Shown piece by piece: positions 1 through 64,000 of a stretch of 64,000 nt of DNA (positions are counted from its first letter, which is position 1; every line of letters begins with the position of its first letter). The DNA is from Limnomonas spitsbergensis (Eukaryota > Chlorophyta > Chlorophyceae > Chlamydomonadales): NCBI GenBank assembly GCA_037349105.1, contig JAYJMM010000065.1:496001-560000 (forward strand), in the 5' to 3' direction. Under the pieces are notes generated by a model. It had not been told where the DNA came from. It did not search any database and saw only the letters and a list, made by a program, of their open reading frames with translations. A program made the translations under genes and the position numbers.

Positions 1-2933
1 AGGGTCTAGTGCCCTCCCCCCTACCTGTGGCGTGACCTTGGCCAGGTTAAGGGTTTAGGGCCTAGTGCCCTCCAACCTACCTGTGGCATGACCTTTGCCA
101 GGTTAAGGGTTTAGGGTCTAGTGCCCTCCCCCCTACATGTGGCATGACCTTGGCCAGGTTAAGGGTTTAGGGCCTAGTGCCCTCCAACCTACCTGTGGCA
201 TGACCTTGGCCAGGTTAAGGGTTTAGGGCCTAGTGCCCTCCAACCTACCTGTGGCATGACCTTGGCCAGGTTAAGGGTTTAGGGCCTAGTGCCCTCCAAC
301 CTACCTGTGGCATGACCTTGGCAAGGTTAAGGGTTAAGGGCCTAGTGCCCTCCAACCTACCTGTGGCGTGACCTTGGCAAGATTAAGGGTTTAGGGTCTA
401 GCGCCCTCCAACCTACCTGTGGCGTGACCTTGGCCAGGTTAAGGGTTTAGGGTCTAGTGCCCTCCCCCCTACATGTGGCGTGACCTTGGCCAGGTTAAGG
501 GTTTAGGGTCTAGTGCCCTCCCCCCTACCTGTGGCGTGACCTTGGCCAGGTTAAGGGTTTAGGGTCTAGTGCCCTCCCCCCTACCTGTGGCGTGACCTTG
601 GCCAGGTTAAGGGTTTAGGGCCTAGTGCCCTCCAACCTACCTGTGGCATGACCTTGGCCAGGTTAAGGGTTTAGGGCCTAGTGCCCTCCAACCTACCTGT
701 GGCGTGACCTTGGCAAGATTAAGGGTTTAGGGCCTAGTGCCCTCCAAGCTACCTGTGGCATGACCTTGGCCAGGTTAAGGGTTTAGGGCCTAGTGCCCTC
801 CAACCTACCTGTGGCGTGACCTTGGCCAGGTTAAGGGTTTAGGGCCCAGTGCCCTCCAACCTACCTGTGGCATGACCTTGGCCAGGTTAAGGGTTTAGGG
901 CCTAGTGCCCTCCAACCTACTTGTGGCGTGACCTTGGCAAGATTAAGGGTTTAGGGTCTAGTGCCCTCCCCCCTACATGTGGCGTGACCTTGGCCAGGTT
1001 AAGGGTTTAGGGCCTAGGGCCCCCCCCCCTACATGTGGCGTGACCTTTGCCAGGTTAAGGGTTTAGGGCCCAGTGCCCTCCCCCCTACCTGTGGCGTGAC
1101 CTTGGCAAGGTTAAGGGTTCAGGGCCTAGTGCCCTCCAACCTACCTGTGGCGTGACCTTGGCCAGGTTAAGGGTTTAGGGCCTAGTGCCCTCCAACCTAC
1201 CTGTGGCGTGACCTTTGCCAGGTTAAGGGTTTAGGGTCTAGTGCCCTCCCCCCTACATGTGGCGTGACCTTGGCCAGGTTAAGGGTTTAGGGTCTAGTGC
1301 CCTCCAACCTACCTGTGGCGTGACCTTGGCAAGATTAAGGGTTTAGGGTCTAGTGCCCTCCAACCTACCTGTGGCGTGTCCTTGGCCAGGTTAAGGGTTT
1401 AGGGTCTAGTGCCCTCCCCCCTACCTGTGACGTGACCTTGGCCAGGTTAAGGGTTTAGGGTCTAGTGCCCTCCCCCCTACCTGTGGCGTGACCTTGGCCA
1501 GGTTAAGGGTTTAGGGTCTAGTGCCCTCCCCCCTACCTGTGGCGTGACCTTGGCCAGGTTAAGGGTTTAGGGCCTAGTGCCCTCCAACCTACCTGTGGCA
1601 TGACCTTGGCCAGGTTAAGGGTTTAGGGCCTAGTGCCCTCCAACCTACCTGTGGCGTGACCTTTGCCAGGTTAAGGGTTTAGGGCCCAGTGCCCTCCCCC
1701 CTACCTGTGGCATGACCTTGGCCAGGTTAAGGGTTTAGGGCCTAGTGCCCTCCAACCTACCTGTGGCGTGACCTTGGCCAGCTTAAGGGTTTAGGGCCTA
1801 GTGCCCTCCAACCTACCTGTGGCGTGACCTTGGCCAGATTAAGGGTTTAGGGTCTAGTGCCCTCCCCCCTACATGTGGCATGACCTTGGCCAGGTTAAGG
1901 GTTTAGGGCCTAGTGCCCTCCAACCTACCTGTGGCATGACCTTGGCCAGGTTAAGGGTTTAGGGCCTAGTGCCCTCCAACCTACCTGTGGCGTGACCTTT
2001 GCCAGGTTAAGGGTTTAGGGCCCAGTGCCCTCCAACCTACCTGTGGCATGACCTTGGCCAGGTTAAGGGTTTAGGGCCTAGTGCCCTCCAACCTACCTGT
2101 GGCGTGACCTTTGCCAGGTTAAGGGTTTAGGGCCTAGTGCCCTCCAACCTACCTGTGGCGTGACCTTGGCCAGGTTAAGGGTTTAGGGCCTAGTGCCCTC
2201 CAACCTACCTGTGGCGTGACCTTGGCCAGGTTAAGGGTTTAGGGCCTAGTGCCCTTCAACCTACCTGTGGCGTGACCTTGGCAAGGTTAAGGGTTCAGGG
2301 CTTAGTGCCCTCCAACCTACCTGTGGCGTGACCTTGGCCAGGTTAAGGGTTTAGGGCCTAGTGCCCTCCAACCTACCTGTGGCATGACCTTGGCCAGGTT
2401 AAGGGTTAAGGGCCTAGTGCCCTCCAACCTACCTGTGGCGTGACCTTGGCCAGGTTAAGGGTTTAGGGCCTAGTGCCCTCCAACCTACCTGTGGCGTGAC
2501 CTTTGCCAGGTTAAGGGTTTAGGGCCTAGTGCCCTCCAACCTACCTGTGGCGTGACCTTGGCCAGGTTAAGGGTTTAGGGCCTAGTGCCCTCCAACCTAC
2601 CTGTGGCGTGACCTTGGCCAGGTTAAGGGTTTAGGGCCTAGTGCCCTCCAACCTACCTGTGGCGTGACCTTGGCCAGATTAAGGGTTTAGGGTCTAGTGC
2701 CCTCCCCCCTACCTGTGGCATGACCTTGGCCAGGTTAAGGGTTTAGGGCCTAGTGCCCCCCTACCTGTGGCGTGACCTTGGCCAGGTTAAGGGTTTAGGG
2801 TCTAGTGCCCTCCCCCCTACCTGTGGCGTGACCTTGGCCAGGTTAAGGGTTTAGGGCCTAGTGCCCTCCAACCTACCTGTGGCGTGACCTTGGCCAGGTT
2901 AAGGGTTTAGGGCCTAGTGCCCCCCCCCCCTAC
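1..2933. repeat. 56-bp minisatellite seeded by a SPY exon-donor junction
   Basis: About 52 copies of a 56-bp unit with few mismatches. On the minus strand each unit reads the last ~24 nt of SPY exon n (codons for LAKVTPQ), then GTAGG and ~30 nt of intron ending in CCCTAAACCCTTAA. Every copy therefore carries a potential 5' splice site. Sub-variants alternate (CCAACC or CCCCCC; TTGGCC or TTTGCC) in a pattern suggesting repeated block duplication. The array runs off the left edge of the window. Confidence 0.97.
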
Positions 2934-3083
2934 CTGTGGCGTGACCTTGGCCAGATTGTTGAAGGAGCCAAAGGTGACGTATCCGTTGATCAGGGCTGGC
3001 AGCTCCGAAACCGAGGGCACGTCAGGGGAGGGCGTGTAGCAGAGGAAGCAGCCGGGCAGCCGCACCAACTGCTCCGCATACGT
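2934..3083 (-). CDS. SPY: SPY exon n (catalytic region, last in window)
   Basis: 50 codons: YAEQLVRLPGCFLCYTPSP to YVTFGSFNNLAKVTPQ. Plant SPY has VEELVRLPDCFLCYTPSP and FVTFGSFNNLAKITPK. Acceptor CCATTGCAG, donor GTAGGG. The last eight codons plus donor are the seed of the 1-2933 array. Confidence 0.96.
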
Positions 3084-6000
3084 CTGCAATGGGAAGGTGA
3101 GAGAGAAGAGAGGGGGGGGTGGTAGGGGAGGCAGTATATGGTTCATGGTTCAGGGATATAGTGGTTTAGGGTTCAGGGATATAGTGGTTCATGGTTCAGG
3201 GATATAGGGGTTTGGGGTTCAGGGATATAGGGGTTTGGGGTTCAGGTATATAGTTGTTTGGGGTTCATGGATATCGGGGTTTGGGGTTCAGGGATATATG
3301 AGTTTAGGGTTCAGGGATATAGTGGTTTGGGGATCAGGGATATAGGAGTTTAAGGTTCAGGGATATAGGGGTTTAGGGTTCAGGGATATAGTGGTTCATG
3401 GTTCAGGGATATAGGGGTTTGGGATTCAGGGCTTAGGGGTTTGGGGTTCAGGGATATAGGGGTTTGGGGTTCAGCGATATAGGAGTTTAGGGATAGGGAT
3501 ATAGTGGTTTGGGATTCAGGTATATAGTTGTTTGGGGGTCAGGGATATGGTGGCTCATGATTCAGGGATATAGTGGTTCATGGTTCAGGGATATAGTGGT
3601 TTGGGGTTCAGGGATGTAGTGGTTCATGGTTCAGGGATTTAGTTGTTTAGGGTTTAGGGATATAGTGGTTCATGATTCAGGGATATAGTGGTTCATTGTT
3701 CAGGGATATAGTGGTTCATTGTTCAGTGATATAGTGGTTCATGGTTCAGGGATATAGGGGTTTGGGGTTCAGGGATATAGGAGTTTGGGGTTCAAGGATA
3801 TAGGAGTTTGGGGTTCAGGGATATAAGGGTCTGGGGCTCAGAGTTATAGGGGTTTGGGGTTCAGGGATATAGGAGTTTGGGGTTCAGGGATATAGTGGTT
3901 TGGGGTTCAGGGATATAGGGGTCTGGGGCTCAGAGTTATAGGGGTTTGGGGTTCAGGGATATAGAAGTTCGGGTTTCTTTCACCCCCCCCATGACTCACC
4001 CCTCCCCTGGTCACCTGCAGCGTGTCCTCAGGGTCGCAGGTGATGTCTGTAATCCGGTAGTCCACTGCCTCCAGGCCGGTGGAGTTGGGATAACCAATCC
4101 ACGTCGCCTGCAGGGGAGCAGGCTTCATGGCCATAACCCCTAGCCGGTTGTTGGCAGTATGGCCTGAAAGGGGGGTTAGTAAATTTTAGTACATTTCAGT
4201 ACATTTAGCTTCATGGCCATGACCCCTAGTTGGCAGTATGGCCTGAAAGTGGGGTTGAGGACATTTTAGGACATGTCAGCGAGTACATTTAGTATATTTT
4301 AGCGAGGGGGGGGCAAAAACAAAAAAAATCGACCCCATCCCCCTATTTTGTAGAGCTGAACGAGAGCGTTCCATAGCTGGTATTGTAATGTGTTTTGGCT
4401 GAGGGGGATGGGAGATATGGGGGGGCAAAGTTGAGGGGGGGGGGGGGGGCGGTGGATGGTCCCCCCCCAAAATCCAAATATTTATTTTCTTCCAAACTCC
4501 GTATCTTTTTTCTGGAGGTCTGTTGAGGCTGACTGCGGCACCTATGTGTTCTCCTTGCCAACACGAGTCCATTTACATCCTAAAATGTTGCTTGAACCAC
4601 CACATGACCCCCTGCCCCCCCACACTGAGGGCTCCATTGGACACACCCCGAAACCAGCTGAGTCATTCTTAGGAAAGGTATTATACGCATTCTGGAAACA
4701 TGTGATCGCTATTGAGCAGCAGTCGGTAGTCGATAGCCTGGCTGAGCTCAGTACCCAAATTGACTGTTAGCATGAATTGTGATCGCTAGCGAGCATTGGT
4801 CGGTACTCAATAGCCTGGCTGAGCCCGGTAACAAAATTAACTGTTGGCCTGTCATCACCTAACGAATTGAGATATACCAGTAGAAGCACCCTGACAAGCT
4901 GATAAAAAAAATCACACCTTACGTGCCTTGTAATTTTGAATTTTGACCGAGATATTTGAATTTCAATGGGTCCCGGAGGCGGGGTGGGTGGGTGGGTGGC
5001 TGGGTGGGTGACTCGTTGGGTGTTCGTTTTTTGGGGGGGGGGATGGGGTCAAGTTTGTAGTACAACTACATTGTAGTATAACTACATTTGTAGCACAACC
5101 ACATTGGAGTGCAACTACATTTGTAGTACAACTACATTTGTAGTACAACTACATTTGTAGTACAACTACATTTGTAGTACAACTACATTTGTAGTACAAC
5201 TACATTTGTAGTACAACTACATCTTGAGGGATGTGTTTAAAAATTGTGTTATTTTATGGTGGGATTTTTATAAGCCTGAGCATAAAGCGCTCGCGTGGCT
5301 CAGTGCAGGCAGTCACTGACTGCAGTCATGACTGCGGCTGTGCCCATCTACAAGAATCTCTTGACCAAGTACTCCATCAACACAGACTATAAGACCATGA
5401 AAACATGTGCCTTTCACTCTCTTCCTCCTCAAGACATGATCACGAAAAAGGAAGACACAGCTGGCCTTCTCAACTGCAGCGCCTGCCTCGTTCCAGTACA
5501 ACATGTCATTCGTCACCGCTTTGGCATCACTGTCGAAGACAACTTCAACAACGTCCGGGTATTGTACCAATGAGTTTTTTAAAATGAGTTTTTTTAGAAT
5601 GATAGGCAAGTTAGCGACATGACGGTAGCGCACCCTGGACGTTTTTTTGTGGGGTGGTATTCAGTTTTTTCGGGGGGGGCATTTCAGGGTTTCCCCCTGT
5701 CCAGAAATTCGGTCCCCAGCCCTAAGGATCAACATGCAAATCACATAGAGAAAGGCGGGGTACCAAAACCCCCTGAACCCTGAACCCAACCAAGCCATGG
5801 ACCTAAACCCTAGTAACCCACACGCGAGCTCCACCAACTCATACACCGGACCAGAATTCACATAAGGAAGAAATACTGAAAGAAAGCTACGCCTCGTGTG
5901 GGGCGTGAGAGCTCAGGAAACAGCGCAGCCTGGGCCAAAGCCATCATTTACTTTCCACGCACCGACAAAACCGACCAATCGACCTACCCCCTGTAAATAA

Positions 6001-9000
6001 ACCCTAAACCCACAACCGAACCAGTCGACCTTCCCCCTATAAAGTAACCCTAAACCCACAACCGAACCAGTCGACCTACCCCCTGTAAACAAACCCTAAT
6101 CCCACAACCGAACCAGTCGACCTTCCCCCTGTAAATAAACCCTAAACCCACAACCGAACCAGTCGACCTACCCCCTGTAAATAAACCCTAAACCCACAAC
6201 CGAACCAGACGACCTACCCCCTGTAAATAAACCCTAAACCCACAACCGAACCAGACGACCTTCCCCCTGTAAATAAACCCTAAACCCACAACCGAACCAG
6301 TCGACCTACCCCCTGTAAATAAACCCTAAACCCACAACCGAACCAGTCGACCTACCCCCTGTAAACAAACCCTAATCCCACAACCGAACCAGTCGACCTA
6401 CCCCCTGTAAATAAACCCTAAACCCACAACCGAACCAGTCGACCTTCCCCCTGTAAATAAACCCTAAACCCACATCCGAACCAGTCGACCTTCCCCCTGT
6501 AAATAAACCCTAAACCCACAACCGAACCAGTCGACCTTCCCCCTGTAAATAAACCCTAAACCCACAACCGAACCAGTCGACCTACCCCCTGTAAATAAAC
6601 CCTAAACCCACAACCAAACCAGTCCACTTCACCCCCTCATAACCTACCCGTGAGCTCCACCAGTATGTCGACGCGGTCCGACCGTACCATTGCCGCCAGA
6701 TCCGCTTCGCTCACTCGCGCGACGTCCCTCCACACGCCCCCCGCCCCCTCCACACCTCGCCTCAGACGCGCAGTCTTGACGTCCTGCTTGAGCGCGCAGC
6801 AGTAGACGATATGCTGCACGTGAGTGGAGGTCCTGCAATGAGGGTGGGGGGGAAGGTGGTTGGAGTGTGGATGGCATTTACATGTGTGGGGGTGCAGTAG
6901 ACGATATGCCGCACGTGAGTAGATGTCCTGCAATGAGGGTGGGGGGGAAGGTGGTTGGAGTGTGGATGGCATTTACATGTGTGTGGTGCAATAGACGATA
7001 TGCCGCACGTGAGTAGAGGTCCTGCAATGAGGGTGGGGGGGGAAGGTGGTTGGAGTGTGGATGGCATTTACATGTGTGTGGGTGCAGTAGACGATATGCT
7101 GCACGTGAATGGATGTCCTGCAATGAGGGTTGGGGGGAAGGTGGCTGGTGTGTGTGTGTGGGGGGGTGTATAGTTGGGGAGGGGGGAGTGGTTGGAGGGT
7201 GTGTGTGTGTGGGGGGGGGGGGGGGGGGAGTGGGGAGGAGGTGGTTGGTGTGGTGTGTGTGTGTGGAGAGTGGGGTGGGGGGTGGAGTGGGGGGGAGGGG
7301 GTTGGTGTATGGATGGGGCGCAGAAGTATACCACATGGCATTGCCATGAGTGGGGATGCAGTAGATTCGAATTGCCTTCCCCTATCATAAACGTTGATGA
7401 GGGGCGAGGGATGCATTGAAATACGCAATTTTGCCTTGACAACGCCAGTTTTAGTTGGAAATCTAGAGTTCCCCCCTCCATACTACCTCAGTTGGAAATC
7501 TAGAGTTCCCCCCTCCATACTACCTCAGTTGGAAACCTAGAGTTCCCCCCCCATACTACCTCAGTTGGAAACCTAGAGTTCCCCCCCCATACTACCTCAG
7601 TTGGAAACCTAGAGTTCCCCCCTCCCCCCATACCACCTCAGTTGGAAACCTAGAGTTCCCCCCCCCATACTACCTCAGTTGGAAACCTAGAGTTCCCCCC
7701 CCCCATACTACCTCAGTTGGAAACCTAGAGTTCCCCCCCCCATACTACCTCAGTTGGAAACCTAGAGTCCCCCCCCCCCCCCCCATACTACCTCAGTTGG
7801 AAACCTAGAGTTCCCCCCTCCCCCCATACTACCTCAGTTGGAAACCTAGAGTTCCCCCCCCATACTACCTCAGTTGGAAACCTAGAGTTCCCCCCTCCCC
7901 CCATACTACCTCAGTTGGAAACCTAGAGTTCCCCCCCCCCCCCCATACTACTTCAGTTGGAAACCTAGAGTTCCCCCCTCCATACTACTTCAGTTGGAAA
8001 CCTAGAGTTCCCCCCTCCCCCCATACTACCTCAGTTGGAAACCTAGAGTTCCCCCCCCCCTCCATACTACTTCAGTTGGAAACCTAGAGTTCCCCCCCCC
8101 ATACTACCTCAGTTGGAAACCTAGAGTTCCCCCCTCCATACTACTTCAGTTGGAAACCTAGAGTTCCCCCCCCCCCATACTACCTCAGTTGGAAACCTAG
8201 AGTTCCCCCCTCCATACTACTTCAGTTGGAAACCTAGAGTTCCCCCCCCCATACTACTTCAGTTGGAAACCTAGAGTTCCCCCCTCCATACTACTTCAGT
8301 TGGAAATCTAGAGTTCCCCCCCCCCCCCATACTACCTCAGTTGGAAACCTAGAGTTCCCCCCCCCCCCCCCCCCCCCCCATACTACCTCAGTTGGAAACC
8401 TAGAGTTCCCCCCCCCCCATACTACCTCAGTTGGAAACCTAGAGTTCCCCCCTCCATACTACTTCAGTTGTAAACCTAGAGTTCCCCCCCCCCATACTAC
8501 CTCAGTTGGAAACCTAGAGTTCCCCCCCCATACTACCTCAGTTGGAAACCTAGAGTTCCCCCCCCCCCCCCCCCCCCCATACTACCTCAGTTGGAAACCT
8601 AGAGTTCCCCCCTCCCCCCATACTACCTCAGTTGGAAACCTAGAGTTCCCCCCCCCCCCCCCCCATACTACTTCAGTTGGAAACCTAGAGTTCCCCCCTC
8701 CCCCCATACTACCTCAGTTGGAAACCTAGAGTTCCCCCCTCCCCCCATACTACCTCAGTTGGAAACCTAGAGTTCCCCCCTCCATACTACCTCAGTTGGA
8801 AACCTAGAGTTCCCCCCCCATACTACCTCAGTTGGAAACCTAGAGTTCCCCCCCCATACTACCTCAGTTGGAAACCTAGAGTTCCCCCCTCCCCCCATAC
8901 TACCTCAGTTGGAAACCTAGAGTTCCCCCCCCCATACTACCTCAGTTGGAAACCTAGAGTTCCCCCCTCCATACTACCTCAGTTGGAAACCTAGAGTTCC

Positions 9001-12000
9001 CCCCTCCATACTACCTCAGTTGGAAACCTGGAGTCCCCCCCCCCCATACTACCTCAGTTGGAAACCTAGAGTTCCCCCCTCCATACTACCTCAGTTGGAA
9101 ACCTAGAGTTCCCCCCTCCATACTACCTCAGTTGGAAACCTGGAGTCCCCCCCCCCCATACTACTTCAGTTGGAAACCTAGAGTTCCCCCCCCCCATACT
9201 ACCTCAGTTGGAAACCTAGAGTTCCCCCCCCCCATACTACCTCAGTTGGAAACCTAGAGTTCCCCCCCCCATACTACCTCAGTTGGAAACCTAGAGTTCC
9301 CCCCCCCATACTACCTCAGTTGGAAACCTAGAGTTCCCCCCCATACTACCTCAGATTGAAACCTAGAGTTGGAAATTATTTGCTTTCTCCATATGACGGT
9401 CTTGAGGGATGCATTGAATAATCAATTTATTCACACCTGAGGTAATTCAAATACACAGTACTGTCCACACCCCACACCTGCAACACCCATACCCACCAGC
9501 TGTCACACACACATTCATTTTTTTGGCCATGCCTGCCAGCTGTCACGCACATTTACCAGCTGTCACATACCTGTGCCTGGACAGGGGCGCCTCCGCAAAG
9601 TATGAAACCGAATGTGTGAACAAATCCGGCGACACGTAGCCCACCACCAGGCAGCGCTCGGGTCGCAGATCTAGATCCGCACGAGGCGTGGGGGGGAGGC
9701 GGGGATGCTGCCGCTGGAATTCCCGCCCCCACTCCGAGTGGGCTTTGCAAACAATAGGGTCCTCGCCTTAGGAACAGGGAAAAAAACAGGGAAGAGGGGG
9801 GGAGAGGGGGGATAAGGAATGAAGAGGGAATAAAGACGGAGCAGGGAATAAAAAGGAAATGAAGAGGGATGAGGGAAGAAAGAGGGAGGAGGGTAAACAG
9901 AGGGAATGAAGAGGGAATGCAGAGGGAACAGGGAAGAGAGGGGTTGCGGGGGAACAGGGCATGAAGAGGGAATACAACAGGGAAGAGGAAAGAGCAGGGG
10001 GGGGAGGGGGGGGGGTATAAAAGAGGAAAGAGGGGGGAGAGGGGGGAGGGAGGAGGGAGGAGAGGGAGTAGGCATGGCCGGGGGATATAGGCGGGAGGAG
10101 GCAAGAGCGGGGGGCAGGGAGGTGTTAAGAGAGGGCGGTGAGAGAGGGGGAGAGAGAGGAGGCATGGGTTGGGGATAGGCGGGAGGAGGCAAAAGGGGGG
10201 AACAGGTAGCTGTGAAGAGAGGGCGGTGACAGAGGGGGAGAGGGAGGAGGCATGGGCGGGGGATAGGCGGGAGGGAACAGCGGGAACAGGGAGGTGTGAA
10301 GAGAGGGCAGTGAGAGAGGGGGGGAGGGAGGAGGGAACAGCGGGGAAGTATGAGGGGGGGAGAGGGAGGAGGGAACAGCGGGGAAGTATGAGGGGGGGAG
10401 AGGGAGGAGGGAACAGCAGGGAAGTATGAGGGGGGGAAGAGGGAGGAGGGAACAGCGGGGAAGTATGAGGGGGGGAGAGGGAGGAGGGAACAGCGGGGAA
10501 GTATGAGGGGGGAAGAGGGAGGAGGGAACAGCAGGGAAGTATGAGGGGGGAAGAGGGAGGAGGGAACAGCGGGGAAGTATGAGGGGGGGAGAGGGAGGAG
10601 GGAACAGCGGGGAAGTATGAGGGGGGGGAAGAGGGAGGAGGGAACAGCGGGGAAGTATAAGGGGGGGAGAGGGAGGAGGGAACAGCGGGGAAGTATGAGG
10701 GGGGGAGAGGGAGGAGGGAACAGCGGGGAAGTATGAGGGGGGGAGAGGGAGGAGGGAACAGCGGGGAAGTATGAGGGGGGGAGAGGGAGGAGGGAACAGC
10801 GGGGAAGTATGAGGGGGGGAGAGGGAGGAGGGAACAGCGGGGAAGCATGAGGGGGGGAGAGGGAGGAGGGAACAGCGGGGAAGTATGAGGGGGGAAGAGG
10901 GAGGAGGGAACAGCGGGGAAGTATGAGGGGGGGAGAGGGAGGAGGGAACAGCGGGGAAGTATGAGGGGGGGAGAGGGAGGAGGGAACAGCGGGGAAGTAT
11001 GAGGGGGGAAGAGGGAGGAGGGAAGAGCGGGGAAGTATGAGGGGGGGAAGAGGGAGGAGGGAACAGCGGGGAAGTATGAGGGGGGGAAGAGGGAGGAGGG
11101 AACAGCGGGGAAGTATGAGGGGGGGAAGAGGGAGGAGGGAACAGCGGGGAAGTATGAGGGGGGAAGAGGGAGGAGGGAACAGCGGGGAAGTATGAGGGGG
11201 GGAAGAGGGAGGAGGGAACAGCGGGGAAGTATGAGGGGGGAAGAGGGAGGAGGGAACAGCGGGGAAGTATGAGGGGGGAAGAGGGAGGAGGGAACAGCGG
11301 GGAAGTATGAGGGGGGAAGAGGGAGGAGGGAACAGCGGGGAAGTATGAGGGGGGAAGAGGGAGGAGGGAACAGCGGGGAAGTATGAGGGGGGAAGAGGGA
11401 GGAGGGAACAGCGGGGAAGTATGAGGGGGGAAGAGGGAGGAGGGAACAGCGGGGAAGTATGAGGGGGGAAGAGGGAGGAGGGAACAGCGGGGAAGTATGA
11501 GGGGGGAAGAGGGAGGAGGGAACAGCGGGGAAGTATGAGGGGGGGAGAGGGAGGAGGGAACAGCGGGGAAGTATGAGGGGGGAAGAGGGAGGAGGGAACA
11601 GCGGGGAAGTATGAGGGGGGGAGAGGGAGGAGGGAACAGCGGGGAAGTACGAGGGGGGGGAGAGGGAGGAGGGAAGAGCGGGGAAGTATGAGGGGGGGAG
11701 AGGGAGGAGGGAACAGCAGGGAAGTATGAGGGGGGGAAGAGGGAGGAGGGAAGAACAGGAACATTGAATGCATATTAAACATGTGCAAGAGATAAACCAG
11801 CATGGACAGTGGCCACCAGGGGGGGAGGGGGGCAATTAGCGGGTCCGGGGCGGGAATTTTTGTCACTTTAGCCAGGCTCAAGCCTGGCTCAGACAAGCTT
11901 CAAATATTAAGATGTTTCATTTCCTAGCTTCCAATTTGCAAATTACATGCTTTGACAAAATTTCCAGCCCTGGAACCCCTGGTTGCCCCCCCCCCCCCTC

Positions 12001-13140
12001 GTGCTGACATGTGCATTTTACGATTAGCCGGTATATATACCATCATGCCATTATCCCGAATAATGCAATCAAGTAATTTATTCCAGAGGTAAACAATACG
12101 AGTTTGCCTGTTCTCGTGTCCATGCCCTGAGCTTAGGCCCCCCCACTTCTAAACCCTAAACCCTACCCACCCCCCTCCCTCTCACCCGGGTAAATGTAAT
12201 TGAGGGCCAGCAAGCGGTTCTGTCCGGCATTCCTGGATCCCGGCGACAGCTCCAGAGAGCGGCTGTAGGACTGAATGGCCTCACTAATAGCACCCACGTC
12301 ACGCTGCATGGGGGGGGAGGTGTGTGTGTGTGGGGGGAGGGGGCATGGGAGCTGTGTGTGTGGAGGAGGGGGGGGGCAGAAAGGCCTCATTAATAGCACC
12401 CACGCCATGCTGCATGGGGGGGTGTAGCTGTGTGTGTGGGGGGGGGGGATGCATGGGGGCTGTGCGTGGAAGGAGGGGGGGGGGGCTGAATGGCCTCACT
12501 GATAGCACCACGTCACGCTGCATGGAGGCAGAGGGGGGGGGGGCTGAATGTGGGAGGAGGAAGGGACTGGAGGAGGAGGGGTGAGGAAGGTTATGAATGA
12601 CCTCAGTAATAGCGCAGTATCACGGGGCATGGTAGATTTGAAGCTTTGTGGACTTTTTACAGTCCAACAGAGCATCACATTTGATACATGGGACTTGTGC
12701 CAGAAAACAAGACAGGCACTTAATACACTAGGACGATACGTTGGTTTAACAGGGTACGATTTTTTTAAGCGGTGGGGTACGGTGCATAAAACAATACGGT
12801 ATAAGGGCCCCAATTCATGGTCGGGGTTAGGGTTTACGGTGGGTGGCTTAGGGCTTAGGGTTCTAGGTGTTGATGGGGGTGTATAGGGTTTGGGGGGGCA
12901 TGGTATAAGGGGGGGGGGGGGCATTCCTTACTCGGTTCTATCGAATAATAATAAACAAGGTACTGCCATTCATCATGAACAGGTGTGGGATGCAAGAAGG
13001 AGCACATACCCTCCTTGCCTGCATGACCTCCTAACGCCCTCCCTCCACCCCCCCTCTACTCACCATGTAATGCCCCCCCCCCCCCCTCTCACCTGCAGTA
13101 CTCCTAGATTTTGATGCCCCGCCCCCCCTGCTTCCCCCCG

Positions 13141-13181
<41 letters not shown>

Positions 13182-16100
13182 CTCCTCCCCTCCCCCTCCC
13201 CTGCTCACCTGCAACACTCCCAGGTTGTTATGAGCCTCGGCATAGTCTGGACTGGCATGAATGGCCGCCACCAGGAGAGCCAGTGCCTCATGCGCCCGGC
13301 CCATGGACGTGTACACCACGCCCAGGTTGTTCAGGCTCTGAGAGCAACAGGAGGCAGTACGGGAGGTACAGTGTGTATCACACATTACATGCGTAAAAGT
13401 ACGGGCAGCACACCGTGCACACCACTCATCAAACAAATTGTGCCAATACAATGTGGACCACTCGCCAAACGAGCAGTACATTGTTTTCAAACATCAACAC
13501 CCATAGGGTGTGCAGCGTAACATGTATCATACATTACACGGGCAGTACAGTGTGTATCTTACATCACACTAGCAGTACAATGTACATCTCATACAACACA
13601 AGTGAAGTACGGTTGTAGGGGTAATGCGTGTTGGACAATACTCTAGAGACAAGCCTTGGGAGATACACAGGACACCCAGATTGTTGCAGATCTGAGAAAA
13701 GGGGGTAACCGTACAAGCAGTATGACCACCTTATGCCTCGTACTGCTGGTGAATCACTTCATGACTTATAGTGCCTACTAACCTGGATATCGCACAAGTA
13801 GTACAACACGCAAGCAGTACACCACAAACAGTACAGCACTCAATAAGTACAACACACAGGACTTCATATTCCTCACCCCAGGTACATCACCCGAGGTACA
13901 TTGCCTGAGGTACATGAACTGATGTACATCGCCTGAGGTACATCACCTGAGGTGTGTACATCACCTGAGGTTTGCACTCCACCGCACGCTCCACGTTGTC
14001 CCGCTCCCGGTACATCCCACCCACCCAACTGGTCCACCCACAAGCAGTACAAAGCAGTGCATTGTGCTCCTCACCTGAGGAAAGTTTGGCCGTATCGTGA
14101 GTGCGGCCATGTAGCACTCCACCGCTCGCTCCAGATTGTCCCGCTCCTTATACAGCACGCCGAGGTTATTGTGTGCCTCCACGCAGAGTGGGTTAAAGTA
14201 CAGCGAGAGCTCATACATGAACAACGCTTTGTCCAGCTGTCAGGGGGCAGGGGGGCAGGGATCAGGGTTCAGGGGGGCAGGGATCAGGGTTCCAAGGCTT
14301 TTGATTGGTTACTTTCAAGTGCAGAAGAAACAAGGTACGGCAAAGAAATTTCAAATAACCTGAAATCTTGCAAATTGTACCGCTTTTCAGATGTACAGGA
14401 TCAATACGGCATGTTCACTTAAAGTCAAAGGTTAAGCGAGGGACATAGGTCAGACCAACCAAAATAAGTAAACGCCCGATGCCTTCTCTGTCTCACTAAG
14501 AAGTAAACGCCCGATTCCCTTCTCTGTCTCACCAAGCATATTCAGGATTTCAGGGTTTCAAACGAAAAGAGGAAAAACAGGAAAAAGAAAGAAAGAAAAC
14601 AACGCCCCGCAGGGGCGTGAGGGTTAAAGGAACAGTGCGGCATGGGCCCGGGCCGCGTCCGCGCCGGTACCATCATAACATGAGAAAATTCATAAAAGCT
14701 ACGGTGGCTTGCGCTTCCGGCTGTGTTTGGCTGGCTGGCTGGTAAATCAGCATGCTGGGGAGTACTCTACGTCTAATCTGCACAAAACAGTGTAAGAGTT
14801 TCTAGCATGCACATGCATTTTTACGGTTACCATGCAGGAGAGAGCAAGCCATGGATTGCTGTCAGAGAGGTGAAACAATTAAGTTGTTGACAGTCTATAA
14901 ATTTAAAACATCCAACCGACATCCAATCTCCCTCCCACCCGCCATGATCACCATCCCAACCAACTTGTCGTACATCCCAACCGCCATGATGTACATCACA
15001 CCCACCCACCTGGCCTGTTTCTGAGAACGCAACACCCAAGTTGTACATTGCATCCGAGTACTTTGGGTTGTGGGCCAGCGCCCGCTCGTACAGCGCGATT
15101 GATTCGGCAACGAGTCCCTCCATCTTGATGCGCGTCCCTAGGTCAGTCAGGGCGATCGCCAGATTGACCTGACCAGAGAGGAGACAGCAGGGGGGTGTAA
15201 ACCCTTAACCCTTAACCCTTAACCCTTAACCCTTAACCCTTAACCCAACACCGTGCAACCCACAACCCTTAATGTGCGTCTCTGCAGCTCTATGTCCCTA
15301 GATCTGTCAGCGCAATAGCCAGGTTGACCTGAGCGGGGAGGAGACAGCAGGGGGGTGTAAACCCCGAACCCTTAACCCCTTTAAGCTTGATGCATGCCCC
15401 TAGGTTTGTCAGGGCGATCGCTAGGTTGACCTGATCAGGGAGGACACAAGGGGGGGGGGGGTCAACAGTGTCCGTCTGTACTACATAGCCCTTTAGTACC
15501 GCTTAACCCTGAAGTACTGCTTAACCCTTTACTACCGCTAAACCCCAAAGTACTGCTACACCCTCATGTACTGCTTAACCCTTAAATACCGCCAAAACAT
15601 TGAGTAGTGATAAACCCTTAGCGCCAAACCCTTATGTACCGCTGAGCCCCAAACAACCAGTACACCCTTAATGCTGGCAAGCACTCAACCCTAACCCCTG
15701 GCCGCACCTTGACAATGGTGAAGTTGGGGGATGCCTCCAACGCCCTCTCGTAGCAGGCAATGGCGCGCTCCAGGTCACCGCGCTCCTTATAAATCACGCC
15801 CATGTTGCAGTGGGACTGGCAGAGGGGGAGGGGGAGGGGGGGGGAGTCAAGCCCATGTTGCAGTGGGACTGGCAGAGGGGGAGGGGGAGGGGGGGGGAGT
15901 CACGCCCATGGTGCAGTGGGACTGGCAGAGGGGGAGGGGGAGGGGGGGGGAGTCAAGCCCATGTTGCAGTGGGACTGGCAGAGGGGGAGGGGGGGGGGGT
16001 GGGGTGGCTGAAAGGGGGGCACAGGGGGGGGGTACAGGGGGGGGGGTGCAGGGGGAGGGAAGTAGGGACTGGCAGGGGGGCACATGGGGGGGTACAGGGG

Positions 16101-19100
16101 GGGGGGTGCAGGGGGAGGGAAGTAGGGACTGGCAGGGGGGCACAGGGGGGGGGTACAGGGGGGGGGGGTGCAGGGGGAGAGAAGCAGGGACTGGCAGGGG
16201 GGCACAGGGGGGGGGGGTACAGGGGGGGGGGGGTGCAGGGGGAGGGAAGTAGGGACTGGCAGGGGGGCACAGGGGGGGGGTACAGGGGTGTGTGTGCAGG
16301 GGGGGGGGTGCAGGGGGAGGGAAGTAGGGACTGGCAGGGGGGCACAGGGGGGGGGGGTACAGGGGGGGGGGGGTGCAGGGGGAGGGAAGTAGGGACTGGC
16401 AGGGGGGCACAGGGGGGGGGTACAGGGGTGTGTGTGCAGGGGGGGGGGTGCAGGGGGAGGGAAGTAGGGACTGGCAGGGGGCATAGGGGGGGGTACAGGG
16501 GGGGGGGTGCAGGGGGAGGGAAGTAGGGACTGGCAGGGGGGCATAGGGGGGGGTACAGGGGGGGGGGTGCAGGGGGAGGGAAGTAGGGACTGGCAGGGGG
16601 GCATAGGGTGTGAGTGGTAGGGAGGTCTAATTTCTTAACATGAAAAGTGTACCGAGTCAAGCCTCATCTTCAGGGATCATAGAAAGAAAGACTACTCCTC
16701 CGCCGAAGCAGGAGGCGTGAGACCGCTCGACCCACAGCAGTTCTATCCTACCAAGGATAGCCCGCTCACGACATTCTAAGGGGCACATCTTCAGAGATCA
16801 TAACATTGAAATACCTTGAGCGACCTTGAGCGACCATTTGCGTTTATTTTAGTCATATGTTTATATAGGGCGGCTGGCGAGGTGTTCACCTGGGAGTAGC
16901 TGGGCAGAAGCTGCACAGCGCGTTGGTAGTGCTCAAGGGCTCGGTCGTACTGCGCATGGCGTGAAGGTGGAAGGAAGGTGGAAGAGCGGGGAGGAGAAGG
17001 TGGGGAGAAGATGGGGGGAGGTGAGAGGAAGGTGGCGTGAAGGTGAGAGGAAGGTGCCCTAGTGGGGCATATTTTTTCTTGCCTCCTTGCTTCCTTGCTT
17101 GTACCAGCAACTGACTAATCCTTTACCGCAACTGCTCTGCCAACCCGTCACATCTCGCTGGCGGGAGCTCCAAGGTCAAATGGTGACGGTGCGGACGTGG
17201 CCTTCGCAAGGGCCAGAGTAGCCCGATACGGAAATACGGTACGGTCAAATGGTACGGTACGTTTTTTGGTGCGGTCCGGACAAAATGGACAGCCTGGTAA
17301 GAAAATGACTGATTCGTTTCCTTCACACTGTGCAGTATTGCTAAACAGTGTGGTGCGGTGAACTGAACGGGGATTTGGGCCCATACGGCCGTACTGGGTA
17401 ACCGTGGGACGTGATCTTTGCCCATGCCCGCACTGTGCCCAACACCTTCACGCCCTTTGCGGAGCCCAGTCCTCATCATTTTTCACACATTTATCAGTGC
17501 GCATGTGGCCTTGGCCCATGCTGCACTGCTCCCTTCAACTTCATGTCCCTGCCGGGCGTAGTTTACGCCTGAAAAAAAACGCTAAACCCACGCCCTTCAC
17601 AATTCTTACGCCCTCCGCAGGGGCATGGAGGTGAATGAGGGTTTAGCTGACCCTTGAAGCTATACCCGAAATGAGGTTTCAGCTTCAAGGGCACGCTGAA
17701 CCCTAAATTAGCTTTACTCTGTAAGCGCATTAGGGTTAAGCTTAAACCCTAGGCTACACCCTGCGTGGACGTTTTTTTCCTTCTTGCTCACCTGCTGCAT
17801 CTCGCTGGTCAGCATGCCCAGGTTGCAATGAGCCGCACTGTTTCCTAGACTCGAACGCCCCTAGGGGGGGTCATAGTTTCCTTCCTTCTTGCTCACCTGC
17901 CGCATCTCGCTAGTCAGCACCCCCAGGTTGTAATGAGCCGCCGCACAAGTGGGACATACCTACGCCTCAGGGGGGAAATGTTTTTTCAGGAAGCAGATCT
18001 GGGAAACCAGATCTAGGTTCAGACGGCGCAAATGGGACAATCCTGTTTTTAGGGATATTAGGGTTTTCAGGAGGCTGATCTAGATATGGGAAACTAGATC
18101 TAGGTTCAGTCCCAGGTATTGATATCGGTGGAAGTGGGACACACCCGGGTCTTGGGAAATCAGGGTTTTCAGGAAGCAGATCTAGATCCAGCTCATTAGA
18201 TCCAGGTCCAGACCCAGATCTTGATACAGGGGCAATGAAGGTGCACCAGGCGCAAGTAGGGCGCACCTGCATCTCAGAAAATGTACCGTTTGCAGGAAGC
18301 AGAAGCAGATGCAACAGGAAATGGATCCAGATCCAATCAGGCTGGGTCCAGATCAGAAATGATGATAGGGTACATTTCCGAAGAGGGTACATATCCCGAT
18401 AGGGTTCATATCCAAATTTCGAACAGGGCACTGTATTAAGATGCATGACTTCAATGTTAAGAAAGATGTCCCACCCACACCCTGAACCGTAACCGTAACC
18501 GTAACCGCAACCGTAGCCGTAACCGCAACCATAACCGCAACCATGACCGCAACCGTAGCCGTAACCGCAACCGTAACCGCAACCGCAACCGTAACCGTAA
18601 CCGCAACCATGACCGTAACCGCAACCATAACCGCAACCATGACCGCAACCGTAGCCGTAACCGCAACCGTAACCGCAACCGCAACCGTAACCGTAACCGC
18701 AACCATGGCCGTAACCGCAACCATAACCGCAACCTTGGCCGTAACCGCAACCGTAACCGCAACCGCAACCGTAACCGTAACCGCAACCGTGACCGTAACC
18801 GCAACCGTAACCATGACGGTAACCATAACCATAACCACAACCGACCCTTTCGTAAGAAGTAAGAAGTACGTATGGTTTCTAATCCTTCGTGCTTATTAAC
18901 GAATCCCTAGGTATAGGCGATCCCAAGGGACAGACCTTACCGTACAGGATCTGCACATAGTGTATGAATCACTCACAGGTACCTCAGAGATTTTTTAAGA
19001 AGTACGTATGGTTTCTAATCCTTCGTGCTTATTATCGAATCCCTAGGTATAGGCGATCCCAAGGGACAGACCTTACCGTACAGGATCTGCACATAGTGTA

Positions 19101-36024: not shown

Positions 36025-36026
36025 GC

Positions 36027-36259: not shown

Positions 36260-36272
36260 CCCCCGCTCCCCA
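36260..36272 (-). promoter_or_regulatory. Polypurine tract
   Basis: The minus strand reads GGGGAGCGGGG directly before segment B, the position where plus-strand DNA synthesis is primed in LTR retrotransposons. Confidence 0.65.
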
Positions 36273-55250: not shown

Positions 55251-55251
55251 A

Positions 55252-56381: not shown

Positions 56382-56384
56382 TAG

Positions 56385-57560
56385 CATCCCGGGTTGTGAA
56401 AGCTCCTCCATTAGGGCTGCTTTTATTGTTTGCTCTGCTGCCGCCTCATGCTGGCATTAAAAAGACCATGGTCTGGCCTGTATGTGCCATGGCATCATGG
56501 GACCTTCGACCTAAATTGATTTTCTGTTTTGCAGCTTTGCTGCCGCCTCGGGCACAAATACTATCCTGCCATTCCGGTATTCAATTCACTGGCATTAATA
56601 CACAAACCGCGCAGCAAACCCAGGACGCATGCTTGCACAAGCACACGACCCAGACATACACCACAGACACGTCGGACAAAAAGAACATGCCCATGCCCTA
56701 GAGTTGACGTTCCACCTCACCAATCGCAAATCTCTCTGTGCCAACAGTACATGTCGCCAATTAGCCAGGCTGGCAGCAGTGGTGTGACCGTGTCATCAGG
56801 CCGGACAGCGTATGGCGCACGTGCTTTCCGGGCTGGTGCGCTCGATACCAGTGGGCTTTCGGGCGACTTCACTAAATGTGTCGCGTACTCACGTAAGCTA
56901 TCATGCTCGCTGTCCGAGCGGGTTCGTGCTTGGAAGGGAACGGACGGAGAATCGGCCAGCAGGTCTCAGGTGGCACATGGATAAAATGAAATATAGGAGA
57001 CGTCCCAGAGACATCCCAGATTCCCAGGTGGGCGTCCCAGGTGGGACGTGGAATGCCTCTGGGACGGCCTGGGACGAGTGGTCCTTTTGCGGAGTGCACT
57101 TCAAGATTTTGCCCCACGGCATGTGCAGATTTTGCAGATCGCGGTCTTTGCAGGCTTGCTGATTTTAGTGATTTGGCCACGCGCGCAGACTGACCCCGAC
57201 CCCAAAGCCAGGTAACCGAGGCAGGTATGCTTTTCTTGGCCGTGCTTCATTCTAGATACATCTCAGCTATATTTCAGCCGCAATTCAGCTACATTTCAGC
57301 TGCATTTTCAGGCAGTCTTACGACCTGGCCCCATAGATAGTAGCCAGGTCAGACATGATTTTATTTGCTGGTATGTCTATGTTGAAGATGCATTTCAGCC
57401 ACAATTCACCTACTATATTTCAGCTGCATTTGTAGGCAGTCTGGTGGCGTGACCCCCCAAGGTTAACTTGGCAGGCATACCTTTTCTTGGCCGGGCTCTT
57501 GCATTTGTATGCAAGTAAGTTACAATTCAGCCACTATCATGATTGATTCTGCCCACATGC
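56385..57560. other. No gene recognised
   Basis: 56990-57080 repeats CCCAGGTGGG/GGGACG palindromic words; 57250-57320 repeats TTCAGCTACATTTCAGC. CTGCTGCCGCCTC at 56438 and 56541 might be decayed exon pieces. Confidence 0.4.
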
Positions 57561-57569
57561 TCCTCTCAT

Positions 57570-57958
57570 GATGCCAGGCAGACTGTATGGAGGAGGGGTC
57601 CTTAATGGCTGCTGCTGCGGGGGGGGCACACCAACATTTTGCTAGGCAGAAAAACGATTGATTATGCCCACTTGCTCTGGTCATGCTGATCCCATGCTGA
57701 TCCCATGCTCATCTCATATTACCAGGCGGGCTGCACGGAGGAGGGGGCGTTAATGGCGGCAGCCGCAGGGGGCCACACCGACATGCTGCTAGGCAGAAAA
57801 ATGATTGATTACACCCACTTGCTTTTCCCGTGCTGCTCCCACGCTCTTCTCATATTACCAGCTGGACTGCGGAAAACGACATGCTGCTAGGCAGAAATCG
57901 ATTGATGATGCCCACTTGCTCTTCTAATGCTGCTCTCATGTTGCTCTACTTCTGCCAG
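57570..57958 (+). repeat. Copies of an ankyrin exon 5' edge
   Basis: Units of about 140 bp at 57577, 57725 and (shortened) 57862 repeat CCAG, then G.GGACTG.ATGGAGGAG and TTAATGGCTGCTGC, the start of the exon at 57959, with the branch/acceptor region. Confidence 0.9.
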
Positions 57959-58239
57959 GTGGACTGTATGGAGGAGGAGGCCTTAATGGCTGCTGCTGCG
58001 AGGGGCCACGCTGAGCTGGTCCACCTGCTCTTGGAGCGCAGCTGTCGGGGAGCCCCCGTGGGCTCAGGAGGCCTGATGGCTGCCGTGGCTGTGCCCCGGG
58101 CGGACTGTTTGGATGGCTGGGGTGATGTCGTGGCGGCGGCGGGTGGGCACGATAATGTGTTGCTGACACAGCTGGAGTGGGAGCAGTTTCCGCCTCAGGC
58201 AGACAGCAGGGACGGGCTGGCGCTCACCGAAGCGGCAAG
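57959..58239 (+). CDS. Ankyrin-repeat protein, exon 1 seen
   Basis: Acceptor CTTCTGCCAG, donor GTAAGC, phase 0 to 2. Reads EEEALMAAAARGHAELVHLL, ADCLDGWGDVVAAAGGHDNV and ADSRDGLALTEAA, recognisable as diverged ankyrin repeats (D..G..AL..AA..GH...V..LL). Ankyrin repeats mediate protein binding; the specific role is unknown. The gene start is not identified. Confidence 0.75.
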
Positions 58240-59250: not shown

Positions 59251-59251
59251 A

Positions 59252-59970: not shown

Positions 59971-59984
59971 GTTTGTACAGCTGT

Positions 59985-60780
59985 CGGGATTATGTGCAGG
60001 GCGGGACACATCCACGTGGCTATCGGGATTATGTGCAGGGCGGGACACATCCACGTGGCTGTCGGGATTATGTGCAGGGCGGGACACATCCACGTGGCTA
60101 TCGGGATTATGTGCAGGGTGGGACACATCCACGTGGCTGTCGGGATTATGTGCAGGGCGGGACACATCCACGTGGCTGTCGGGATTATGTGCAGGGTGGG
60201 ACACATCCACGTGGCTGTCGGGATTATGTGCAGGGCAGGACACATCCACGTGGCTGTCGGGATTATGTGCAGGGCGGGACACATCCACGTGGCTGTCGGG
60301 ATTATGTGCAGGGCGGGACACATCCACGTGGCTGTCGGGATTATGTGCAGGGCGGGACACATCCACGTGGCTGTCGGGATTATGTGCAGGGCGGGACACA
60401 TCCACGTGGCTGTCGGGATTATGTGCAGGGTGGGACACATCCACGTGGCTGTCGGGATTATGTGCAGGGTGGGACACATCCACGTGGCTGTCGGGATTAT
60501 GTGCAGGGCGGGACACATCCACGTGGCTGTCGGGATTATGTGCAGGGTGGGACACATCCACGTGGCTGTCGGGATTATGTGCAGGGCAGGACACATCCAC
60601 GTGGCTGTCGGGATTATGTGCAGGGCGGGACACATCCACGTGGCTGTCGGGATTATGTGCAGGGCAGGACACATCCACGTGGCTGTCGGGATTATGTGCA
60701 GGGCGGGACACATCCACGTGGCTGTCGGGATTATGTGCAAGGCGGGACACATCCACGTGGCTGTCGGGATTATGTGCATG
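59985..60780 (+). repeat. 39-bp array resembling an ankyrin exon start
   Basis: About 20 copies of TTATGTGCAGGGCGGGACAC plus ATCCACGTGGCTGTCGGGA. One frame reads AGHIHVAVGIMCR, ankyrin-like, each preceded by a possible acceptor (TGTGCAG). It is open in all forward frames because 39 is divisible by three. It follows a good pyrimidine tract and acceptor (TTTTTCTTGTTTGTACAG) at 59985. Whether it is coding or an intronic edge array is unresolved. Confidence 0.9.
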
Positions 60781-61579
60781 GGGGGTTTAAAGAATGGGGT
60801 GTTTGTTTGAGGGATTGGGGATTAGGGTTGAAGAATTGGGTTTCCGTTATTGGGGGTCAGGTTTCAGGGACTGAGTTATAGTTTTGAGGGATTGGGTTTC
60901 AGCGATTGGGGTCCAGGCTGAAGGGATTGGGGTGTCGGGTCAGGGGATTGGGATGAAGGGATGAAGAGATGAAGGGATCAGAGTCTATGTTGAAGCGCGC
61001 TAACATCTTGATGGCGGCCTGTCAGGTCCGCCCCGTTAAGGGTCGAGGGATGAGGGGGGTGCGCAATGACATTGACAAGATTGGGTAAGGGCTGATAGCA
61101 GCCTCTCGTGCGGAAGCATGACAAACGGGAACGAGCATGTCCTTGCTGCCCTGTCTAAGACAAGCGCAGTCCCTTTTCCGGGTAAAGTTCCCCACCCTCA
61201 GGCAGCCCTGCGGCAGCCAAAGGTCCAATTTGCGACGAACCTTGACCAGCCTGCTTACATAGGCTCAAGCAGCATGCCTGGCTGCGCATGGGGCCGTCGG
61301 TCAAGGGCCGGAACTTACCTGAAACGTACCGGAAATGCACTGGAAATGTACTGGAATGGTACCGAACATGTAGCTTAATTATCGCTGAAGTATGTTTGAA
61401 AGAGAGCTTGACTTTATCGGAAATGTGGCTGAACTATACCAGAAATCTGGCTGAAATGTGGCTGAAATATACTGAAAATATCCAGAAATGTGGCCGTAAT
61501 GTAGCTGCAACGCAGCCGAGCTTGAAGATGAATAATGTATGTGCCTGATTGTGATGTCGCCCTGGCCTGACTGCTGCAG
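60781..61579 (+). other. Intron-like; one possible ankyrin exon end
   Basis: 60790-60990 has GGGATTGGGG words. ANILMAACQ followed by GTCCGC at 60990-61025 would join in phase to the exon at 61580. 61330-61500 repeats GAAATGTGGCTGAA. No other gene. Confidence 0.45.
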
Positions 61580-61677: not shown

Positions 61678-61679
61678 GT

Positions 61680-62791: not shown

Positions 62792-62906
62792 GTCCGGCCA
62801 TGCGACGACAGTGCTGCTTCTGCTCAGCTACCCCGAATACGCGCCTAGGGCTGACAGCCAGGATGGAGAGGCGCTGGTCATGGCAGCTCAGTACGGCCAC
62901 ACACAG
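62792..62906 (+). CDS. Ankyrin-repeat protein, exon
   Basis: Acceptor CTCTCTCTCAG. Reads SGHATTVLLLLSYPEYAP then RADSQDGEALVMAAQYGHTQ, phase 2 to 0, donor GTAGAG. A clear ankyrin unit. Confidence 0.8.
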
Positions 62907-63004
62907 GTAGAGGCAAAAGCAGGGGGGCAGGAGCATGCGCTTCATGTGCTTCAGGGAAGTTATACCTGGGGAGTGGTTACTGGGAATAAGATAATCCCTG
63001 TAAT

Positions 63005-63475
63005 CGGATGGGGAGGCGTTGGTCATGGCAGCTAAGTACGACCACACACAGGTAGGGATGGGAGAAAACGTCTGGCGCTTCGTGGAAAGCGCCCCGTAGA
63101 ATGCAGTAAGCGGGCTAGCCTACTTGACGATAGAACTGCCAAGGGCCGAGTGGTGCATCGCGCCTCCTTCTGAAGCAGAAGTCTTTCTTTCTGTCTTTCT
63201 TTCTGTCTTAGAGACAAGGGCATGGGCTTGTGGGGACTGATAATAGGGGAAAAGTCTTATTCAATAAGACATTCACTGCAATTGGATGGGGAGGCGTTGG
63301 TCATGGCACAGCTCAGTACGGCCACGCATAGGTAGAGGCAAGAGCAGGGGGGCAAGAGTGTGTGCTTCAGGGGACTGGTGACTGGGAAAAAGACTAGCAC
63401 TGCGATTGGATGCCTACTGGGAAATGGCTGAACAGGATGGAGAGGCGCAGGTACGGCCACACCCAGGTAGGGACA
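63005..63475 (+). repeat. Copies of the ankyrin exon 3' edge with donor
   Basis: The exon end GGAGAGGCGCTGGTCATGGC ... GGCCACACACAG|GTAG recurs at about 63010-63055, 63285-63335 and 63436-63470, each followed by similar intron sequence. Confidence 0.92.
63084..63215 (+). repeat. Short dispersed repeat, family 2
   Basis: Matches the reverse complement of 16682-16790 and ends in (TCTTTCTG)n. It sits between two exon-edge copies. Confidence 0.6.
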
Positions 63476-63833
63476 GGAGTATGTGCTTTAGTGGACTGAC
63501 AACTGGGAATAAAGCAGTGCCTCTTTTTCGGCTAAAAGGCCACCTTCGACAACAGGACGGCCCCCAAGGGCCCGATTGGGACCAAAACTGGATCGACCTA
63601 TGAGTGGTGGCCAAAGTAGCATGACTGGCCACAAACGGGACCTCCGGCCTGAGTCTCAAATGTAGCTGACATGAAGCTGAGACACTAAAAACGAAACACT
63701 GGAATAATCACTGCAAGTTGAGGCTAACTGGGAAAAGGCTGGACAGTAAGGTTTATTCCGTTGCATATGCATCGAGGTGGCGGAGCTGCTATTTTGTCTG
63801 ACATGTGCGCCAATTCATCATCTGTGCCAGTAG

Positions 63834-63905
63834 GTGGTTGACCTACTCCTCGCCTGGAGGGGACTGGAGGCTGCATCTCATGGCTGCTGTTTCCATACCG
63901 TATAT
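63834..63905 (+). CDS. Possible next ankyrin exon
   Basis: After GCCAGTAG the frame reads VVDLLLAWRGLEAASHG, joining YGHTQ in phase. Its real end is unclear; TAA follows after 24 codons. Partial copies precede it (63772, VAELLF) and follow it (63950, WAAASDGCYF). Confidence 0.45.
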
Positions 63906-64000
63906 TAATTATTGATTGTCTGACATGAGCTGCTCATCTCCTAGAAGGGCTGGGCCGCTGCTTCTGATGGTTGCTATTTTCCTATATGAATTACTTCATT

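Follow-up and report, generated by a model that had tools for sequence, protein, structure and literature searches.

Why do the introns of a green alga contain copies of the very ends of the exons that they separate? The question is raised by a stretch of 64,000 nucleotides (nt) from Limnomonas spitsbergensis (positions 496001-560000 of contig C65; this whole stretch is called the window below), in which a SPINDLY gene has, next to many of its exons, intronic repeats comprising the exon end, the splice site and some intron. The original prediction saw in these repeats a single recurring process that nucleates at exon-intron borders. In our analysis, the straddling form of the copies, their recurrence and the confinement to the home locus of the two units searched genome-wide are all borne out. 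The start at borders is not, since plain repeat coverage has no peak at the junctions and the 33 junctions spanned outside SPINDLY fall within the 16-36 produced by a simulation without junction preference. It is probable, in our judgement, that local tandem duplication not aimed at junctions, together with protection of the coding sequence, explains most of the pattern.

Copies of exon edges in the SPINDLY gene

The SPINDLY model was obtained with a purpose-written spliced aligner and a guide sequence. It lies on the minus strand and consists of GT-AG exons within and beyond the window, whose concatenated sequence best matches plant SPINDLY structures (PDB 7y4i, 8dtf). There are 18 modelled exons and 34 junctions: 14 exons are in the window and correspond to the letters a-n used earlier, four are outside, and a further 31-nt terminal piece was excluded. 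Each exon edge was compared by blastn with its own intron, on the same strand only. Low-complexity matches (trinucleotide entropy <3) were excluded from the edge-copy, family, coverage and retention counts and from the simulations. Junction-spanning copies were found in the adjacent intron at 17 of the 34 junctions by edge blastn and at 16 by a stricter self-comparison. The exons and copies in the window are as follows (arrays from Tandem Repeats Finder, TRF; a slash marks a splice position):

1..2948, on to -6184 outside the window, minus strand: 56-nt array copying the exon n donor edge (24 nt of exon, LAKVTPQ, plus the GTAGG donor and intron); TRF, 52.8 units; 162 edge matches including the original, 53 in the window
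2934..3083, minus strand: SPINDLY exon n (spliced alignment, GT-AG)
4015..4163, minus strand: SPINDLY exon m (spliced alignment)
4208..4294, minus strand: single copy of the exon m acceptor edge (45 nt of intron, 42 nt of exon, 80% identity; blastn)
6648..6832, minus strand: SPINDLY exon l (spliced alignment)
6799..7154, minus strand: 95-nt array copying the exon l acceptor edge (34 nt of exon, AG intact; TRF and blastn)
9571..9766, minus strand: SPINDLY exon k, no edge copies listed (spliced alignment and blastn)
12186..12303, minus strand: SPINDLY exon j (spliced alignment)
12374..12633, minus strand: three copies of the exon j acceptor edge (32-36 nt of exon; blastn)
13040..13200, minus strand: copies of the exon i donor edge (13-24 nt of exon, donor and intron; blastn)
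13209..13337, minus strand: SPINDLY exon i (spliced alignment)
13974..14021, minus strand: copy of the interior of exon h (nt 76-123), then a degraded exon end with CTCAG/GT (blastn)
14075..14236, minus strand: SPINDLY exon h (spliced alignment)
15010..15168, minus strand: SPINDLY exon g (spliced alignment)
15294..15464, minus strand: two copies of the exon g acceptor edge (35 and 45 nt of exon; blastn)
15708..15815, minus strand: SPINDLY exon f (spliced alignment)
15794..16004, minus strand: 53-nt array copying the exon f acceptor edge (22 nt of exon; TRF and blastn)
17771..17836, minus strand: single copy of the exon d donor edge (45 nt of exon, 21 nt of intron, 89%; blastn)
17897..17959, minus strand: SPINDLY exon d (spliced alignment)
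22600..23468, minus strand: copies of the exon a donor edge (13 hits by blastn; the outer limit is approximate)
23536..23700, minus strand: SPINDLY exon a; 5' edge AATAG/GTGGCTGG set from the reading frame and the copies, the alignment having put it at 23663
23785..24518, minus strand: 92-nt array with eight copies of the exon a acceptor edge (TRF and edge matches)

Blastn confirmed spanning copies at the donors of exons a, d, i and n and at the acceptors of a, f, g, j, l and m. The edges named by the original prediction (both edges of a and i, and exons d, f, g, h, j, l, m and n) thus hold except for the acceptor of i, where no copy was found (the best match, 16/24, equals the shuffle threshold), and for h, the copy of which does not itself span the junction. 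Weaker copies that were not on this list occur at the acceptors of b and d, at the donor of l (where the best copy lacks the GT) and at exons p, q and r, outside the window. There are also TRF arrays that end about 3-11 nt short of an exon edge and do not enter the exon (array end/exon edge: 6637/6648, 13206/13209, 14236/14240 and 20811/20814).

The donor edge of exon n is present in 161 copies besides the original, spread over about 9.1 kb. The copy number first proposed, from 1 to about 52, agrees with the 52 copies that lie in the window and is too low for the full array. When the genome (260,226,709 bases in 124 contigs, the longest of 10,736,355) was searched with a stretch of this array, all 70 matches were at the home locus, and the exon j region, too, has matches at its home locus only. 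Since arrays are where assemblies fail, one may ask whether these repeats were collapsed or inflated in the PacBio assembly or during polishing. We give this idea hardly any credence: many of the copies are single or few and have diverged by 10-30%, and the read L50 given in the accessible part of PMC11228838, 32.9 kb, far exceeds the roughly 9.1 kb of the array.

Extent across the genome

The sample beyond the window comprised 17 random 10-kb loci and five loci with housekeeping genes. VMA1, two CDC48 paralogues, EF2 and HSP90 were modelled from guides. SPINDLY and four of the guide-modelled genes served to train an exon predictor. Of the 49 donors and 49 acceptors in these four, which are its own training genes, it recovered 43 and 42, respectively. 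It gave 14 exon chains from 19 sources, ten of which were kept after removal by eye of L012-, L015- and L025+ (retroelement-like) and of L013+ (low-score antisense), and it predicted no chain in six of the random loci (L016, L018, L019, L022, L023 and L026). The sole gene retained from L029 is the VMA1 neighbour.

Altogether, 49 of 292 junctions are spanned (16 gene models, 146 introns), or 33 of 258 without SPINDLY. Outside the window the figure is 31 of 250 in 14 gene models, and an ankyrin-type gene in the window gives two spanned junctions out of its eight. Both exon boundaries are affected (24 donors and 20 acceptors among 266 junctions), and no spanned junctions were seen in EF2, L021, L024 or the VMA1 neighbour. 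The proposal that junction-straddling copies recur in multiple genes is therefore confirmed inside and outside the window. Their spanning form is also as first described, with an exon part that is wider than the 15-50 nt then proposed (median 36 nt, range 11-117, for 55 junctions in 16 gene models). Donor copies are located downstream of the donors and acceptor copies upstream of the acceptors; in the same-strand search, the nearest copy is 53-200 nt from its source at 27 of 31 junctions and at most 160 nt from it at 22, the remainder being longer. In the best copy the splice dinucleotide is intact for 14 of 17 donors and for 9 of 14 acceptors, and the protein guides align through the outer splice sites. 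Tandem repeats cover 31.7% of the 170 kb of random loci, and the background for any test of junctions is therefore high.

Are junctions preferred sites of duplication?

The explanation that we favour would work as follows. Non-coding DNA would undergo frequent local tandem duplication of mostly 50-200 nt, sometimes expanding into arrays, with breakpoints that have little or no preference for junctions. If it lay wholly within an exon, a duplication would damage the protein and be lost. One that straddles a junction would be tolerated, because the exon-adjacent unit keeps the exon and the outer splice site, the spare exon ends staying in the intron. Moreover, because selection conserves the exon half, spanning copies would be recognisable for longer than pairs of purely intronic units. 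As to the duplication step itself, we infer slippage or unequal exchange; splicing would ignore the inner splice sites.

The control that had been suggested, a comparison with mid-exon segments, was run in SPINDLY, where interior segments match the adjacent intron in only 3 of the 16 exons tested (b, h and p) and are thus rarer than edge matches, as predicted. Selection alone predicts likewise: exon sequence can be duplicated next to an exon that stays intact only if the duplication straddles the junction, so this control cannot separate border-seeking from selection. Among the 96 repeat families in the 146 introns, 49 span a junction and five contain exon without spanning; the simulation described below gave a mean of 1.4 such non-spanning families out of 65, a similar picture.

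Another possibility is that junctions are true hot spots, at which breaks linked to transcription or splicing, R-loops or template switching start duplications at the border. We regard this as unlikely. Plain repeat coverage climbs from the exon through the junction into the intron and shows no peak at the junction (0.18 at the junction itself, then 0.25, 0.38 and 0.57 at 60-100 nt, at 200-300 nt and deep in the intron, respectively). We also simulated tandem duplication, deletion and substitution without junction preference, rejecting changes that harm exons or splice sites and applying the identical detector. This null was matched to the repeat load, with 52.6 simulated and 53 observed introns with repeats, 65 and 71 families, and a coverage of 0.32 and 0.276, respectively. 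In the 129 introns outside SPINDLY, the mean of the 24 runs was 24.8 spanned junctions, and the observed number was reached by four of them. Outside SPINDLY there is no excess either among families with a best identity of at least 88%, 7 of 16 of which span a junction, against a null mean of 7.2 of 17.7. Earlier simulations at other rates (11 runs) had 6-38 of 24-97 families spanning.

Several results weigh against duplication that is wholly unaimed. Coverage weighted by copies is 0.053 at the junction and 0.066-0.081 at 60-400 nt (0.066 at 60-100, 0.075 at 200-300), and the junction value exceeds that deep in the intron, 0.039. Coverage by repeats of at least 88% identity is slightly raised at the junction, 0.035 compared with 0.025 immediately inside the intron. 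When families were permuted over introns, the 44 spanning families observed compared with an expected 17.5, i.e. 27 vs 8.2 for the five guide-modelled genes and 17 vs 9.3 for the ten predicted chains; for families with a best identity of at least 90% there were 8 vs 2.3. Outside SPINDLY the spanning share of families, 33 of 71 (0.465), was reached by only one of the 24 null runs (mean 0.373, range 0.25-0.53). In SPINDLY itself, a gene picked for the feature, the 16 of 34 junctions spanned are above the 4-15 found in all 24 null runs at similar coverage; an earlier SPINDLY simulation at lower rates (18 runs) had given 1-9 of 34, at a coverage of 0.18-0.57, which is below the observed 0.71. Donor GTs in the copies, discussed in the next section, are kept above expectation. 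Lastly, the unit length, expansion and deletion of the simulation were chosen by the analyst, and its rate was tuned to the repeat load.

The permutation test, for its part, is biased, because the exon half does not mutate and because separate intron arrays merge into a single family. Nucleation at borders, which this test had at first backed, was mostly withdrawn given the coverage profile and the simulations. The total of 49 observed, compared with about 34 in the null, would still allow an excess of about 1.4-fold, to which SPINDLY, chosen because it shows the feature, contributes a part.

Splice sites within the copies

Selection keeping decoy splice sites was also among the original suggestions. 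U1 docking suppresses premature cleavage and polyadenylation, and copied donors could be kept as docking sites in long repeat-rich introns, or else as spare splice sites. The copied GT is intact in 0.90 of the copies, vs 0.66 for other internal dinucleotides (26 donor junctions) and 0.58 for other GTs (25 donor junctions). This paired difference is strong; it becomes weaker once the simulated baseline, itself an excess of 0.09, is applied, a difference of at least 0.24 then having a P of about 0.015 under a null that covered non-SPINDLY structures only. A strong effect of decoy selection was thus given up. For acceptors, the copied AG is intact in 0.78 of the copies compared with 0.58 for other AGs (p 0.07, 18 acceptor junctions), but against internal dinucleotides the values are 0.71 and 0.63 (21 acceptor junctions), which is not significant. 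The rest of the donor consensus argues against such selection as well: positions -3 to -1 match in 0.82 and +3 to +6 in 0.81 of cases, with 0.82 for the exon side and 0.75 for the intron side, so that flanking consensus positions are hardly raised. All considered, we find selection of decoys very unlikely; what stands of the suggestion is a weak hint for donors, and donor GT retention is a lead.

At the exon a acceptor, the eight array copies all read CAG/GTGGCTGG, and the exon-adjacent site reads TAG/GTGGCTGG; because of this difference, the site taken as real looks weaker than its decoys. A bolder proposal would combine both ideas. Junctions would be genuine initiation points of duplication, exceeding the unaimed rate about 1.4-fold or more, with higher values in some genes, and the copied donors would be selected. 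Introns would thus grow as spare 5' splice sites, still of use to the pre-mRNA, pile up in them. We consider this combination quite improbable.

Turnover between CDC48 paralogues

The two CDC48 genes (L030 and L033) are on different contigs; their exons are 84-93% identical, and 9 of 12 introns have no alignable sequence. Under a looser criterion, which asks for 10 nt of exon or more and does not demand spanning, edge copies are found at 8 of 24 and 5 of 24 junctions. Only two junctions, donors 7 and 10, have them in both genes; there the offsets differ, as though two separate hits had occurred, which speaks for hot spots. Because few junctions are shared and the offsets differ, edge copies appear to arise and vanish within the time over which these paralogues have diverged, and the pair thereby offers a ready clock for intron turnover.

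Comparison with known systems

In amphioxus, minisatellites called mirages are known, the original report of which is said to be that of Canestro et al. in 2002. According to the accessible part of PMC3087553, the repeat unit of these mirages, of 10-160 bp, spans the exon-intron boundary in Adh3 and in globin genes, and both the 5' and the 3' exon boundaries are affected. Many, though not all, of the copies retain the splice dinucleotide and regular splicing is unaffected, length is unstable between haplotypes or somatic cells, and the mechanism is termed unclear. As far as this description goes, the anatomy in the alga is the same: a spanning unit, both boundaries, a mostly overlapping unit length and partial retention of the dinucleotide. 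The differences are that the organism is a green alga, that the junctions affected number 33 of 258 outside SPINDLY and 16 of 34 in the gene itself, and that there are up to 161 copies. Furthermore, the mirages are known with allele and RNA data, whereas the copies in the alga are known here from genome sequence.

Intron gain by tandem genomic duplication, in the accessible part of PMC3443670, resembles the present case in that a tandem duplication carries a splice-like AGGT and exons can remain intact; there, however, the duplicated segment is exonic and the new intron forms between its two copies, whereas in the alga the duplication takes in a junction that already exists, and it is the intron that becomes longer. 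Introners, as presented in what is available of PMC9860276, are likewise repeated intronic sequences tied to splicing, but they copy themselves into many genes. Dispersal of this type was not found for the two units searched genome-wide (the exon n array and the exon j region), which match their home locus only. The literature searches yielded no report of such repeats in green algae, which is weak evidence, subscription papers being largely outside the search. The accessible text on Haematococcus has no mention of them, and that on Plasmodiophora, which concerns the mitochondrial genome, was set aside. What is new here is the occurrence in an alga, at about one junction in eight outside SPINDLY, and the turnover between paralogues.

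Other features of the window

The ankyrin-type gene, named by eye and from the original prediction without a family scan, is on the plus strand. Its exons at 57959 and 62792 carry edge copies as predicted, two and three respectively:

57546..57772, plus strand: two 79-nt copies (32 nt of intron, 47 nt of exon) of the acceptor edge of the exon at 57959
57959..58237, plus strand: ankyrin-type coding segment, start CCAG/GTGG, end an unchecked limit
59980..60785, plus strand: 39-nt array, 20.7 units, internal CAG/GG (TRF)
62792..62906, plus strand: ankyrin-type exon with end CACACACAG/GTAGAG
63006..63479, plus strand: three donor-edge copies from exon 62792-62906, at 63006, 63286 and 63433

For the 39-nt array, thought to be a probable exon-edge copy, no parent exon was found. 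The copies ascribed to the last exon of a CAX-like gene have no counterpart either: motif scans, and exon prediction in the intervals 23.7-37 kb and 52-58 kb, both without homology search, found no such gene.

A retroelement occupies 36965-52543 on the minus strand, with long open frames, one of which has reverse transcriptase, RNase H, integrase, PHD finger and partial C-5 cytosine methylase domains (the last with 24.7 bits for a cut-off of 22); a zinc knuckle is in another frame. The 1-kb piece 36001-37000, which overlaps its end, matches 40 or more genomic positions at 95-100% identity. In the window there are 150 occurrences of four telomere-like heptamer words, where 24 are expected from a second-order Markov model, and 120 of these occurrences are inside tandem arrays; in the random loci, 87 are inside arrays and 52 outside. 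In view of this enrichment, such words were considered as a possible element of the duplication mechanism. The telomere repeat TTTAGGG was seen at two of the seven contig-end stretches inspected (L037 and L039). Finally, a tRNA match in an intron region (19195-19267, minus strand) has 35 bits with Rfam RF00005 and no ARAGORN call.

Significance

Boundary-spanning minisatellites are more than an amphioxus oddity, since they affect about an eighth of the junctions sampled in a green alga. They provide a concrete route for the lengthening of introns and the build-up of decoy splice sites, and pairs of paralogues may serve as its clock. A word of caution is that unaimed duplication and purifying selection alone yield exon-edge specificity, so that claims of hot spots need a simulated null. 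Genomes of this kind would be a natural setting in which to study how a splice site is chosen among dozens of near-identical donors.
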